Source: Pseudomonadota bacterium (lineage in GTDB: Bacteria; Pseudomonadota; Gammaproteobacteria; Burkholderiales; Gallionellaceae). From it: a stretch of DNA of 64,000 nucleotides. Where the stretch lies: assembly GCA_021782995.1 (NCBI GenBank), contig JAJXUI010000009.1, forward strand, positions 1-64,000. Direction: 5' to 3'. Position 1 is the first letter of the stretch. Each line of letters starts with the position of its first letter. Below, piece after piece: positions 40,103 through 45,139 of the stretch. Position numbers and translations under genes: made by a program. The notes under the pieces are model-generated. The model saw only the letters and a program-made list of their open reading frames with translations, did no database searches and was not told the DNA's origin.

Positions 40103-40940
40103 ATCGATTATCGGGCACCAAAAAGCCCCGCTCCAGATATTCGACAAAGCGCTTGCGGTAAGCCTCGCTGCGCAGTGCAGCAATATGTTGTCCGCCTTGC
40201 ACCACCCACATTTCCTTCGGCTCCCTGGCCGCTGCAAACAAAGCCTCACCATGATGCAGCGGCACCACAGGATCACTGTCGCCATGGATGATCAGCAGCG
40301 GAATCGGGCTGACCTTTGCCACGTTCTTCAGGGGGCTGTAATCGTTGTCGATCGTGAATGACAGCGGCCACTGCAAGGGCCAGGTCAGCCAGAAGGCCGC
40401 CAGTTTCTCACGCGCAATGGCTCGGTAATCGGAAAATGCGCTTTCCTCGATCAGCGCACGGATATATTCGCGGTAAGGGCTGTGCGCCACGTTATAAATC
40501 GCCAGCGCCCCGCCCAGGCTCTGCGCAAATATCGCGATGCGTTTATGGTCGATATCTTTCCGCTGCAACAGGTATGCCATCGCCGCATCGATGTCCTTTT
40601 CAGCCCCCGCCAGCGAGGGTGTACCCTCGGAACCGCCATAGCCGCGGTAATCCAGCAGCAGCACGTTGTAATGTTGCGCAGGCAGCCAGTACACATTGCC
40701 GATATGCGTGCTGATGTTTTCTGCGTTGCCGTGCAGATAGAGGATCGTGCCCTTTGCTTCTCCCGCTGCCGGCAGGAACCAGGCAAACAGCTTGACGCCA
40801 TCGCCACTGGTGATCTGCACGTCTTCGTATTTCAGTCCCAATTGATCCGGCGATGAATATTGCTTCGCATGTGGCTGGAAAAATAACGAAGTACATCCGG
40901 CCAGCGCCAGGCACAGCGCAGTCACTAGCCATTTATTCAT
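40101..40940 (-). CDS. Lipoprotein alpha/beta hydrolase (BEM46/YqiA-like)
   Basis: Lipobox ALAGC; GTILYLHGNAENISTH; FAQSLGGALA; HGDSDPVVPLHHGEAL; ATGA overlap with upstream DUF4105 gene. Confidence 0.88.
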   Translation of the reverse strand: MNKWLVTALCLALAGCTSLFFQPHAKQYSSPDQLGLKYEDVQITSGDGVKLFAWFLPAAGEAKGTILYLHGNAENISTHIGNVYWLPAQHYNVLLLDYRGYGGSEGTPSLAGAEKDIDAAMAYLLQRKDIDHKRIAIFAQSLGGALAIYNVAHSPYREYIRALIEESAFSDYRAIAREKLAAFWLTWPLQWPLSFTIDNDYSPLKNVAKVSPIPLLIIHGDSDPVVPLHHGEALFAAAREPKEMWVVQGGQHIAALRSEAYRKRFVEYLERGFLVPDNR

Positions 40941-42865
40941 TCGAAAAATTCCTGCCACACGATATTGGCATCCGTCCAGGCCTGATCAAATTCCGCTTTT
41001 CGCAGCAATTCGATTTTCAGCGCAGAATTTTTGCCGATCGTGAAACGCTGCAATATGCCTGCTTCGCCGACGGTATGCAGTTCCCCCAGGAAGAATCGCT
41101 GCATGCGCGCCCTGACATTGATATTCCAGCGCCCGCCTATCTCTTTCATGATGCCGATTTCCGGGCCCGCGCCCAGTGCGTAACTTCCATGATATTGCGA
41201 TGCCGTTTCTAACGATGAATCCAGCATGACATAGGTCTGTGCCTGCCGGTTATCCATTGAGGGTGCATCCCAGGCATACCCGACGCCCGCATTGAGATGC
41301 ATGATCAGCGGATCATTGTCTGCAGACATCCGCTTCCTCAGCCATCCCATGTCCACTTTCCAGGAAACAGGCTGGAAAAAGTCATTGCGCGATGCGAGCG
41401 AAAAAATATCGATAGGCGTGAATTCCTCCACGCGCAACCCACCCTCTTCTCCGTAATGGCGGAGACGCAGATTGAAAAACTGTATTTCCGCTCCTGGCAC
41501 ATAACCCGCAACGGGATCATTCAATTCATGATATGCAGGACGCCACTCGATTTCCTGGTAGGGAACCCCGTCCCGGTTCCCCCCACCCAGGCCTGCACGC
41601 AATGATGGATGCCCCTGTTCCGGCCGGCTTTCCGGTTCAAGCACTTGAGATATGCCCGAGTCAGCCTGAAGACTGCTGCGTGCAAGCTGGAGTTTCCGCA
41701 TACGACTGGCAAGCTCAGGTTTTTCGCCCTGCCCGGCTTGCATATAGGTCAAATAATCTTCACCCAGCTCCATGATCTCAGCCTGATCCTGCTGAGGAAG
41801 CCTGACAATTTCCGCATCATCAGCCTCCCGCGCACCTTTGCTCAGGCCCAAGGCCAAATTGCGCATTTCAGGCTTCATGACCTTCAGGAGGTGATTGATC
41901 TGCGTCGCATTGGCAGGGCGAAATACCACCTGCTTGACCAGCCCGGGCTGCTCAGTCACTGCCCGTACCGTTTCGGAAGGAATGGCATACCAGCGGAACT
42001 TGTCCGTCAGCTCCAGTCCGGGGCGCGCCACTTCCAGCAAGGACAACAAATGGTATGCGCAGTTTTCATCAAAAAAGTAGTAATCAAAATAGGTCGGCGC
42101 CAGCTCCCACACATGGCGCATCATGCGCTCGACTTCCACTTCATCAAGATTCAGCCGGTATTCCCAGATATCACGATTCTCCATATCGCTGTATTCTCGC
42201 ACCTTCAGATAATACGGCATGATCTGGAATATGCCCGGATACCCCCCGGTCAGCCCCTGAACTGCAAACAGCAATCCATTGGTTTCGCTGGTGCCTGCGG
42301 TATAACCGACGGTATAGGCGAGCAATCTCGTACGCTCGTCCTGGTCTTTTGCATCAATGCGCAACAAGGTATGACCATACATGGATGCCCGGCTATTGAT
42401 ATAGGCCGCCGGGAACACCAGGGTGACTTCTTGCGGGTTGATCGCCTGATGCCACTTCTCATACCGTTTGCACTCATGCGGCCTGAGCCTGGCCGGATCA
42501 AAATGCAATTGCTCATTCAGCCAGTAATACCGGGCGATGAACCTGCACTGTGGATTTTGCAGCGAGCCCGTTTCTTCCTGATCGGAAAAAAATGCTGCGA
42601 GTGTAGCGTCCAGCTCCTGGCCGGCATCATGCATGCCATTCTTCGAATTGAAAAAATCCGGATCATCCGCAAGGCTTCTTGAACCAGGCCAGAAGGGGTA
42701 GGGTTTGTAATGAAGCAGATTCAACCACTCAAGTCGCGACGCGAGGCCTAGCGCATGCGACCGACTGATCAGCTCCTGCAAATAGGGATTGGCATTCTCC
42801 GCCAGGGCGAGTGAACTGTTTACCAGCAGACAAGCCGTCAACATTGCATAATTCAGAAACTTCAT
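40937..42865 (-). CDS. DUF4105 (Lnb N-terminal periplasmic domain-like) protein with beta-barrel-like C-terminus
   Basis: Signal peptide; INSRASMYGHTLLRID and YYFFDENCAYHLLSLLEVARPGLELTDKF motifs; C-terminal alternating strands ending WQEFFE. Confidence 0.85.
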   Translation of the reverse strand: MKFLNYAMLTACLLVNSSLALAENANPYLQELISRSHALGLASRLEWLNLLHYKPYPFWPGSRSLADDPDFFNSKNGMHDAGQELDATLAAFFSDQEETGSLQNPQCRFIARYYWLNEQLHFDPARLRPHECKRYEKWHQAINPQEVTLVFPAAYINSRASMYGHTLLRIDAKDQDERTRLLAYTVGYTAGTSETNGLLFAVQGLTGGYPGIFQIMPYYLKVREYSDMENRDIWEYRLNLDEVEVERMMRHVWELAPTYFDYYFFDENCAYHLLSLLEVARPGLELTDKFRWYAIPSETVRAVTEQPGLVKQVVFRPANATQINHLLKVMKPEMRNLALGLSKGAREADDAEIVRLPQQDQAEIMELGEDYLTYMQAGQGEKPELASRMRKLQLARSSLQADSGISQVLEPESRPEQGHPSLRAGLGGGNRDGVPYQEIEWRPAYHELNDPVAGYVPGAEIQFFNLRLRHYGEEGGLRVEEFTPIDIFSLASRNDFFQPVSWKVDMGWLRKRMSADNDPLIMHLNAGVGYAWDAPSMDNRQAQTYVMLDSSLETASQYHGSYALGAGPEIGIMKEIGGRWNINVRARMQRFFLGELHTVGEAGILQRFTIGKNSALKIELLRKAEFDQAWTDANIVWQEFFE

Positions 42866-42966: not shown

Positions 42967-43461
42967 TTAAACGGCTTCAGCGTACTTGGACAACGTGCTG
43001 TCTGCAGCCATGACCTGCTTCAGGCCGAATGCAATCTGATCGGCAGAAGCTTGGTCACCCACGAAAATTTTTGCGAAATTTTCCTTGGTTACGCGATTGA
43101 AAGTGGCGCGATCAGCTTCATTCACACCAATCAGCGATGCCAGTGAATCCAGCGTTTCGCCGCTACCCCTGGACATATCCATCGCCAGCTTGGATTTGTT
43201 ACCGTCGATATAAACAGCCATTTTCCAGCTGGATGAAACTACGCCATCCTGCGAACAGCCTGACGTGCCGGATGTTACGGCAAAAGTATTGTAGAACGTG
43301 CTGTTGGTTGTCATCGCCAGTACCTGCGGTGCAACACCCTTCTTGCCATTCCACAGCATGGAGCCGACACCACAGCCACCTGATGCATCAGCAGCAAATG
43401 CCGAAACTGGAATCAAGGCAGACAACGCCACAACTGACACAATATGTTTCATTTTCATCAT
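42967..43461 (-). CDS. DUF3015 family secreted protein
   Basis: Signal peptide; GGCGVGSMLWNGKKGVAPQVLAMTTNSTFYNTFAVTSGTSGC. Confidence 0.88.
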   Translation of the reverse strand: MMKMKHIVSVVALSALIPVSAFAADASGGCGVGSMLWNGKKGVAPQVLAMTTNSTFYNTFAVTSGTSGCSQDGVVSSSWKMAVYIDGNKSKLAMDMSRGSGETLDSLASLIGVNEADRATFNRVTKENFAKIFVGDQASADQIAFGLKQVMAADSTLSKYAEAV

Positions 43462-43762: not shown

Positions 43763-44158
43763 ATGAAACAACGCCTAATCCGCTTCATCAGCAGCCTGCT
43801 GATCACCAGCATGTTGAGCATGAGCATCTGGATGCCTGGTGCACAGGCTGCCATGATCACCACCGAACAGGTCATGAACCAGCAGCTTGCTGAACAAAAC
43901 CGCGACAAGGTTCGCGCCTTCTTTGACCGTGAAGACGTACGCAACCAGCTGCAAGCCCAGGGTGTCAGCGCCGACTCGGCCAAGGCACGTGTGGATGCCC
44001 TGACGGACAATGAGGTCGCCAGCATTGCCGGCCAGATCGACACCCTGCCAGCAGGTGGTACCGATATTCTCGGTTTCATCCTGCTCGTATTCATCATCCT
44101 GCTGTTTACCGATATCCTCGGCCTGACACACGTGTTCCCGTTCACACGGCATCGCTAA
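43763..44158 (+). CDS. PA2779-family (DUF6627-like) small membrane protein
   Basis: Signal peptide, MITTEQVMNQQLAEQNRDKVRAFFDREDVRNQLQAQGVSADSAKARVDALTDNEVASIAGQIDTLPAGG then C-terminal TM FILLVFIILLFTDILGLTHVFPFTRHR. Confidence 0.88.
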   Translation: MKQRLIRFISSLLITSMLSMSIWMPGAQAAMITTEQVMNQQLAEQNRDKVRAFFDREDVRNQLQAQGVSADSAKARVDALTDNEVASIAGQIDTLPAGGTDILGFILLVFIILLFTDILGLTHVFPFTRHR

Positions 44159-44167
44159 GCGCTGAAA

Positions 44168-45139
44168 ATGAAGCACCTGAATAACGCCCGCCTCCTGGTG
44201 GGCGTTTTCTATCTGGCCATCCTGTCTGCATGCAGCACCCCGCAGACCAGCCTGTTATTGCAGCAGCGGCCTTCCACCTTGCCACCGCACCTGGAGCTCA
44301 CCGAGGTTGCCTACTTCCCGCAAGAGGAAAACCAGTGCGGACCCGCCTCCCTGGCCATGGTACTCGCTACGGCAGGCCTGCCCATCCAGCCGGAACAACT
44401 GAAAGACGAGCTTTACATTCCGGATCGCAAGGGCAGCCTGCAGGTGGAAATGCTGGCGGCAGCACGCCGCCAGGGGATGCTTGCCTATCAGCTGGAACCA
44501 CACCTGGAATATGTACTGAACGAGGTCGCGGCAGGCAACCCGGTGATCGTGCTGGAAAATCTCAGCCTGCAGTGGTTTCCCATGTGGCACTATGCGGTCG
44601 TCATCGGTTATGACCTGGACAAACAGGAAATCATCCTGCGCTCCGGCGCTGAAAGGCGCGATGTGATGACGCTATCGACATTCGAACATACCTGGTCGCG
44701 CAGCCAGTACTGGGCAATGCTTGCACTTCCCTTATCACGCATCCCGCAAACTGCAACACCCGGCAATTACATCCAGAGCCTGCAGGCACTTGGCCACAGC
44801 AGACCCCAGGCCAGCCTGCAACCCGCCTTCGAGGCCGCGCTGCAACGCTGGCCTGACGACCTTGCCGTACAAATTGCCGCCGGCAACGAGGCTTACAACC
44901 GTAATGACTTTGCAAATGCGCAGCGGATTTTCCGCATCGCCACCTCCAGCCACCCTGACTCAGCCGCCGCCTTCAACAATCTTGCACAAACGCTCAGCGA
45001 CATGGGGCAATACGAAGAGGCCCTCAGGATCATCCACCAGGCCGTGCAGATAGGCGGTCCGCTCAAATCCATCATCGTTGCAACACAGGCTGAAATCGAG
45101 CGCAAAAAACGTGCAGCAGAAGCTGCAGACGTCAAGTAA
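44168..45139 (+). CDS. PA2778-family C39-like cysteine peptidase lipoprotein with TPR
   Basis: Lipobox LSAC; NQCGPASLAMVLATAGL (Cys) and MWHYAVVIGYD (His); C-terminal TPR. Confidence 0.88.
   Translation: MKHLNNARLLVGVFYLAILSACSTPQTSLLLQQRPSTLPPHLELTEVAYFPQEENQCGPASLAMVLATAGLPIQPEQLKDELYIPDRKGSLQVEMLAAARRQGMLAYQLEPHLEYVLNEVAAGNPVIVLENLSLQWFPMWHYAVVIGYDLDKQEIILRSGAERRDVMTLSTFEHTWSRSQYWAMLALPLSRIPQTATPGNYIQSLQALGHSRPQASLQPAFEAALQRWPDDLAVQIAAGNEAYNRNDFANAQRIFRIATSSHPDSAAAFNNLAQTLSDMGQYEEALRIIHQAVQIGGPLKSIIVATQAEIERKKRAAEAADVK

Follow-up and report, generated by a model that had tools for sequence, protein, structure and literature searches.

C39 peptidases are best known from ABC exporters, in which they form the domain that cuts off leaders, and the classical C39 leaders are N-terminal. 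In the window, i.e., the whole 64-kb stretch of DNA that was analysed, a lipoprotein with C39-like motifs is encoded immediately behind a small membrane protein that carries a Pro-Ala-Gly-Gly sequence in front of a hydrophobic C-terminal tail, which raises the question of whether such an enzyme may act in the cell envelope on a co-encoded substrate, outside any ABC exporter. A sequence-only reading of the locus had proposed a cognate peptidase/substrate pair of this kind; the proposal is partly supported, on the strength of the pairing of the two genes, of a catalytic Cys that tracks the partner and of the register of a P-A-G motif, and its literal Gly-Gly has to be relaxed.

Locus and pairing across genomes

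The first gene (43763..44158, forward strand) encodes a PA2779 family protein (DUF6627) of 131 aa, which matches NF033919 with 136 bits (curated cut-off 40) and PF20332/DUF6627 with 109.6 bits (cut-off 27). The second gene (44168..45139, forward strand), the ORF of which starts 9 nt past the PA2779 stop, encodes a PA2778 family cysteine peptidase of 323 aa, which matches NF033920 with 330.9 bits (curated cut-off 150) as well as PF13529, PF03412 and TPR. Both ORFs were confirmed as the sequence-only reading had described them, namely the small protein with IDTLPAGG and a 32-residue hydrophobic tail and, 9 nt on, the lipoprotein with C39-like Cys and His motifs and TPRs. The match of the two ORFs to both families is not due to chance. 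Both window proteins are clear members of families that themselves carry names only, and a search of the open literature turned up no published work on the function of either one; beyond the names, the present analysis adds the pairing statistics, the PAG[GA] register, the tail classes, the catalytic loss and the embedded hairpin. The PA2779 domain has no other significant homology in Pfam, a search for distant relatives returned one locus only, and no Rfam match was found within the 64-kb window. The divergent neighbours are both uncharacterised, namely an Lnb_N/DUF7840/DUF7843 protein (40937-42865, reverse strand) and, adjoining it, a DUF3015 protein (42967-43461, reverse strand). In P. aeruginosa, PA2779 is divergent to PA2780 (bswR); one clone has lost the annotated start codon of PA2778.

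In all genomes checked (~130), PA2779 was accompanied by PA2778, nearly always as its direct neighbour, and no PA2779 without PA2778 was seen among them. Out of 398 Pseudomonadota genomes sampled across the phylum, 40 encode PA2779 above cut-off, corresponding to 42 loci, and in 42/42 PA2779 immediately precedes PA2778 in the same orientation. Within the order of the window, for which 300 genomes were sampled, PA2778 was present in 60/60 further PA2779-positive genomes tested and in 0/12 PA2779-negative genomes, while all Pseudomonadaceae genomes checked with a full-length PA2778 also have PA2779 (32/32). Conservation around the pair does not extend to any third gene, the widest neighbour cluster being made up of frames that run antisense to the two genes themselves. 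Judged by gene content, PA2779 and PA2778 are an obligatory two-gene pair. The pair has no conserved exporter or transporter neighbour, and no other C39 domain was found in the host genome (G000, 85% complete), which fits the earlier suggestion that this is not an ABC-exporter bacteriocin system.

Some genomes encode an additional, orphan PA2779 at a great distance from PA2778, all orphans having been found only in PA2778-encoding genomes. Those of the Pseudomonadaceae (L226-L232) are paralogues with a different hydrophobic tail and may be second substrates; the orphans of L228 and L231 adjoin genes that we take to be scpA/scpB-like. In some Burkholderiales (L177, L179, L180 and L170), a single PA2778 is preceded by PA2779 copies in tandem, which differ in their tails.

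At the level of the active site, 124 of the 126 paired loci have a PA2778 with both Cys and His, i.e., 124/124 of the intact ones, the two exceptions being broken or truncated genes. Among the unpaired PA2778 relatives that Pseudomonadaceae without PA2779 often retain, and which are shorter than paired PA2778, the catalytic Cys is replaced in 36/36 examined, mostly by Ser or Gly, and the His by Arg or Gln in most of these 36; PA2779 is absent from 48/48 genomes checked with such relatives, the intermediate G403 included. On the tree, three changes are required to explain the unpaired state, and well-supported branches force at least two of them, the unpaired lineages being G403, the g226 pair beside a paired congener, and one large clade. 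This sequence comparison indicates two to three independent losses of the Cys in Pseudomonadaceae lineages without PA2779, and it appears that PA2778 retains its catalytic Cys only in the presence of PA2779, as would be expected if PA2779 were a substrate or an obligate co-factor. Since the only frequent solitary relatives of PA2778 are the Cys-less pseudo-peptidases of the Pseudomonadaceae, the pairing is strengthened, and the co-occurrence that a cognate pair should display was upheld. Of note, the Cys-less relatives (L104-L109, L144-L168, L234-L238) are widespread in Pseudomonas, lack TPRs and are mostly intact lipoprotein genes; they are a candidate pseudo-peptidase family with a function of its own. 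Their assignment as FapD was rejected, as they lack the Cys and lie outside fap operons.

The P-A-G site and the tails of PA2779

PA2779 is composed of a signal peptide (~residues 1-29), a helical domain with a proposed role in docking (~residues 30-95), the PAGG sequence (residues 96-99) and the hydrophobic tail (residues 100-131), with helices modelled by AF2 at residues 34-54, 57-65, 70-79, 82-93 and 102-118. In the window, the C-terminus reads IDTLPAGG and then the 32-residue tail TDILGFILLVFIILLFTDILGLTHVFPFTRHR (44060..44155, forward strand). Based on motif conservation and fixed spacing, the codons of P96-A97-G98-G99 (44048..44059, forward strand) are proposed to specify a C39-type processing site.

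Across 129 non-redundant PA2779 homologues (L062 being entered with its real site), the site is PAGG in 76 (59%), PAGA in 37 (29%), PAAG in six and PAGS in three, the rarer forms being PVGE/PTGE (three), PAGQ (one), PVAG (one) and sites without Pro (two). Position by position, P is found in 127, A in 125 and G98 in 122 (Ala in seven), and the next residue is mostly G or A. With only ~59% PAGG, the Gly-Gly, taken literally, is not an invariant feature, and on this point the sequence-only reading has to be amended; in the alignment, it is P-A-G that is near-invariant, and P-A-G-[G/A/S] holds in a fixed register. As far as the residues go, this form is mostly compatible with the site preference of C39 enzymes, which sometimes cut at GA (PMC5557850). 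The spacing from E84 to P96 is 12 residues in 117/118 measured cases, and length variation among the homologues occurs only after the motif, directly behind it. The helix before the site follows the pattern [LM][ST]xxE[LIVA]xx[LIVF] in 120/129 homologues. Double-glycine leaders have the form LSxxELxxIxGG, with the GG directly behind the motif. The complete motif with an adjacent G[GAS] is found in 1/129 PA2779 homologues, PAG[GA] lying ~8 residues further on, so that PA2779 is not a double-glycine leader in the strict sense, and the likeness of its helix to the LSxxELxxI of these leaders is suggestive only.

Behind the same domain and PAG[GA] motif, the homologue alignment distinguishes three unrelated tails, namely (i) class 1, including the window tail and corresponding to a conserved TDILGxTxVFPFTR type, (ii) a generic TM with a basic end, and (iii) a hydrophobic end without basic residues (class 3). 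The class 1 tail is strongly conserved and therefore more than a disposable anchor; unrelated tails take its place in Burkholderiales and among orphan paralogues. As for Cys residues in the tail, a pair (LC...C, ~10 apart) is present as such in 30 homologues (L063-L066, L074, L078, L206-L225 and L103), both being absent elsewhere and never one without the other; a disulfide or a metal site there would raise the question of which membrane side holds the tail end.

The PA2778 peptidase, the model of the pair and a hairpin in the first codons

The window PA2778 exhibits a lipobox LSAC (lipid Cys, Cys22), a C39 domain (~43-195) with the Cys motif ENQCGPASLAMVL and the His motif MWHYAVVIGYD, and C-terminal TPRs (~200-320). 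Both PF03412 and PF13529 score over cut-off in PA2778, and its model matches the ComA peptidase domain (3k8u) in Foldseek with a target-normalised TM of 0.82 at 2.8 A. On this model, the C39 fold is confirmed, with the oxyanion Gln (Q52), the Cys (C57) and the His (H141) present; at the position of the third catalytic residue, the Asp of C39, paired PA2778 have Ser/Thr (S159 in the window), rarely Gly/Ala. No Asp follows the lipid Cys and the predicted destination is the outer membrane. The Pfam domain search found no cell-wall binding domain in PA2778.

PA2779 and PA2778 are in frame across the stop and the 9-nt spacer, a natural match by which the read-through chain can be folded as a surrogate complex. 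For the fused window pair, AF2 gave a pLDDT of 90.9 and a pTM of 0.84 from 134 aligned rows, of which 18 were fused alike. For L183, a Burkholderiales pair whose tail is of another kind, it gave a pLDDT of 87.9 and a pTM of 0.82. Single-chain fusion of this sort may inflate model confidence. With PA2779 unplaced, pTM would by our estimate from the pTM formula reach at most ~0.66 (ordered PA2778 ~283/458 residues, d0 = 7.65 A, unplaced residues at >=20 A); both values are above this ceiling and PA2779 should thus be placed on PA2778 in the model, it being from the pTM that we infer a docking of the two proteins. As such, the co-folding advised in the sequence-only reading turned out positive in an indirect manner. 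A direct coupling analysis run on 118 pairs (Neff 93) yielded noise, with no signal that could be interpreted.

Within codons 6-13 of PA2778 (44183..44206, forward strand) lies an intrinsic-terminator-like hairpin, AACGCCCGCC-TCCT-GGTGGGCGTT, then TTCTATCT, which in the window scan corresponds to a 10-bp GC-rich stem followed by a T-rich stretch (RNA fold z = -2.8). Downstream of the PA2779 stop, the hairpin is found in 28/108 non-redundant pairs, against an expectation of 0.9 in dinucleotide shuffles (at most 4/108 over 100 runs) and of 0-2 when the windows are shifted; when the T rule is dropped, 54 hairpins are observed against 6.7, and 49/54 start within the PA2778 ORF. Resampling of synonymous codons with the protein kept fixed yields 2.4 expected against 28/107 observed (maximum 7 in 100 runs), an excess from which it follows that codon choice maintains the hairpin. 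The signal-peptide string N-A-R-x-x-A-G-V recurs, with a codon-level palindrome AACGCCCGC...GCGGGCGTT, and homologous hairpin positions occur across families (L062, L067, L100, L171 and others). In the Cys-tail lineage, mostly Pseudomonadaceae, the hairpin is nearly absent (1/29). The hairpin would likely result in plenty of PA2779 and little PA2778. Expression data from P. stutzeri DSM4166 rank PA2779 within the top 3% of expressed genes under all conditions tested (PMC10155442), a datum from the Cys-tail lineage, where the hairpin is largely absent.

Proposed mechanism, rival explanations and known systems

The mechanism that we infer, as regards docking, cleavage, cut position, expression ratio and functional fragment alike, is that PA2778 cleaves PA2779 at PAG[GA] in the envelope, outside any ABC exporter, a candidate that we consider reasonably probable. 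Both proteins would be Sec-exported, PA2779 as the dedicated substrate of PA2778 reaching the inner membrane and exposing its helical domain to the periplasm, and PA2778 becoming a lipoprotein, predicted in the outer membrane. The helical domain, including the amphipathic leader-like helix, would dock on the C39 domain and offer P-A-G-[G/A] at a fixed distance to Cys57/His141, and the cut would part the hydrophobic tail from the domain in the periplasm. In many lineages, the hairpin in the first PA2778 codons would stop most transcripts after PA2779, leaving substrate in excess over enzyme. That the whole constitutes an exporter-free maturation system, in which interchangeable C-terminal peptides would be cut at PAG[GA] and the ratio set by the embedded terminator, is put forward tentatively. 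With the pair, exporter-free C39 enzymes gain a candidate substrate that is encoded beside the enzyme and for which a cut site is predicted, in a module spread across the Pseudomonadota, including P. aeruginosa, the namesake of the families. As such, a function hypothesis is now available for two uncharacterised families, and the hairpin, placed as it is in the signal-peptide codons, offers a testable example of overlapping coding by which the enzyme-substrate stoichiometry would be set.

Against PA2779 as a substrate stand the Ser/Thr in place of the C39 Asp, the ~4/129 sites with GE or GQ, a site that precedes a C-terminal tail, unlike the N-terminal C39 leaders, and a predicted outer-membrane location of PA2778 as opposed to the inner membrane for the intact PA2779 tail. 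The main rival to cleavage, which we regard as rather unlikely, holds that PA2779 is a partner tethered to the membrane, which activates, inhibits or recruits a PA2778 with its target elsewhere, PAG[GA] being a helix-breaking hinge; this would account for the obligate pairing, the docking-level pTM and the loss of the Cys upon partner loss, and the conservation of the class 1 tail itself also speaks for it, but a hinge needs neither a near-invariant P-A-G nor a fixed spacing across three unrelated tails, and the tandem and orphan PA2779s with other tails resemble several substrates for one enzyme. Removal of the tail by a rhomboid-type intramembrane protease, with PA2778 as a downstream chaperone or second-step peptidase, draws on the resemblance of PA-/-GG before a TM to GlyGly-CTERM/rhombosortase and rhomboid sites, e.g., A-/-GGV (PMC3237569); it is nonetheless improbable, since the near-perfect co-occurring partner is PA2778, without a conserved third gene beside the pair, and class 3 tails end without basic residues. 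It is very improbable, too, that PA2778 works as an isopeptidase or amidase on the cell wall or on some other component of the envelope, aided by PA2779 as a co-factor: a lipoprotein with TPRs and a model matching the pseudomurein endoisopeptidase PeiR (target-normalised TM ~0.5) would suit this role, yet the ComA peptidase is closer (TM 0.82) and a cell-wall binding domain is lacking.

Among known systems, ComA/PCAT exporters share with the pair the C39 fold (3k8u, TM 0.82), the Gln-Cys-His residues and a Gly/Ala-rich site after an amphipathic helix, whereas here there is no ABC transporter, the substrate would be Sec-routed, a hydrophobic C-terminal tail stands behind the site and the C39 Asp is replaced by Ser/Thr; as a stand-alone lipoprotein, PA2778 is not a peptidase-containing ABC exporter. 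FapD, from the Pseudomonas Fap amyloid system, is like PA2778 a Sec-exported, stand-alone C39 protein outside an ABC exporter. It is periplasmic, with a catalytic Cys needed for FapC secretion (PMC5557850), from which it follows that exporter-free periplasmic C39 enzymes exist. Unlike PA2778, FapD keeps the C39 Asp (GDP), has neither TPRs nor a PA2779 partner and is encoded amid the fap amyloid genes, and no significant similarity was found between FapD and the window PA2778 by pairwise BLASTP. In Pseudomonas, another periplasmic C39 protein was observed beside a probable outer-membrane protein (L243, L245), away from the N-rich amyloid genes that form the context of L244/L246. The GlyGly-CTERM/rhombosortase system resembles the pair in its small-residue motif followed by a TM helix, often with a basic end, and in a near-perfect enzyme-target co-occurrence where single targets adjoin the enzyme (PMC3237569); rhombosortase, however, is an intramembrane serine protease, while PA2778 is a soluble-domain cysteine peptidase with a single family of small proteins as its candidate target, the co-encoded enzyme being a C39 rather than a rhomboid-family protein. 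Most likely, the pair works like a C39 leader peptidase; it is neither an ABC-exporter peptidase nor FapD nor a rhombosortase.
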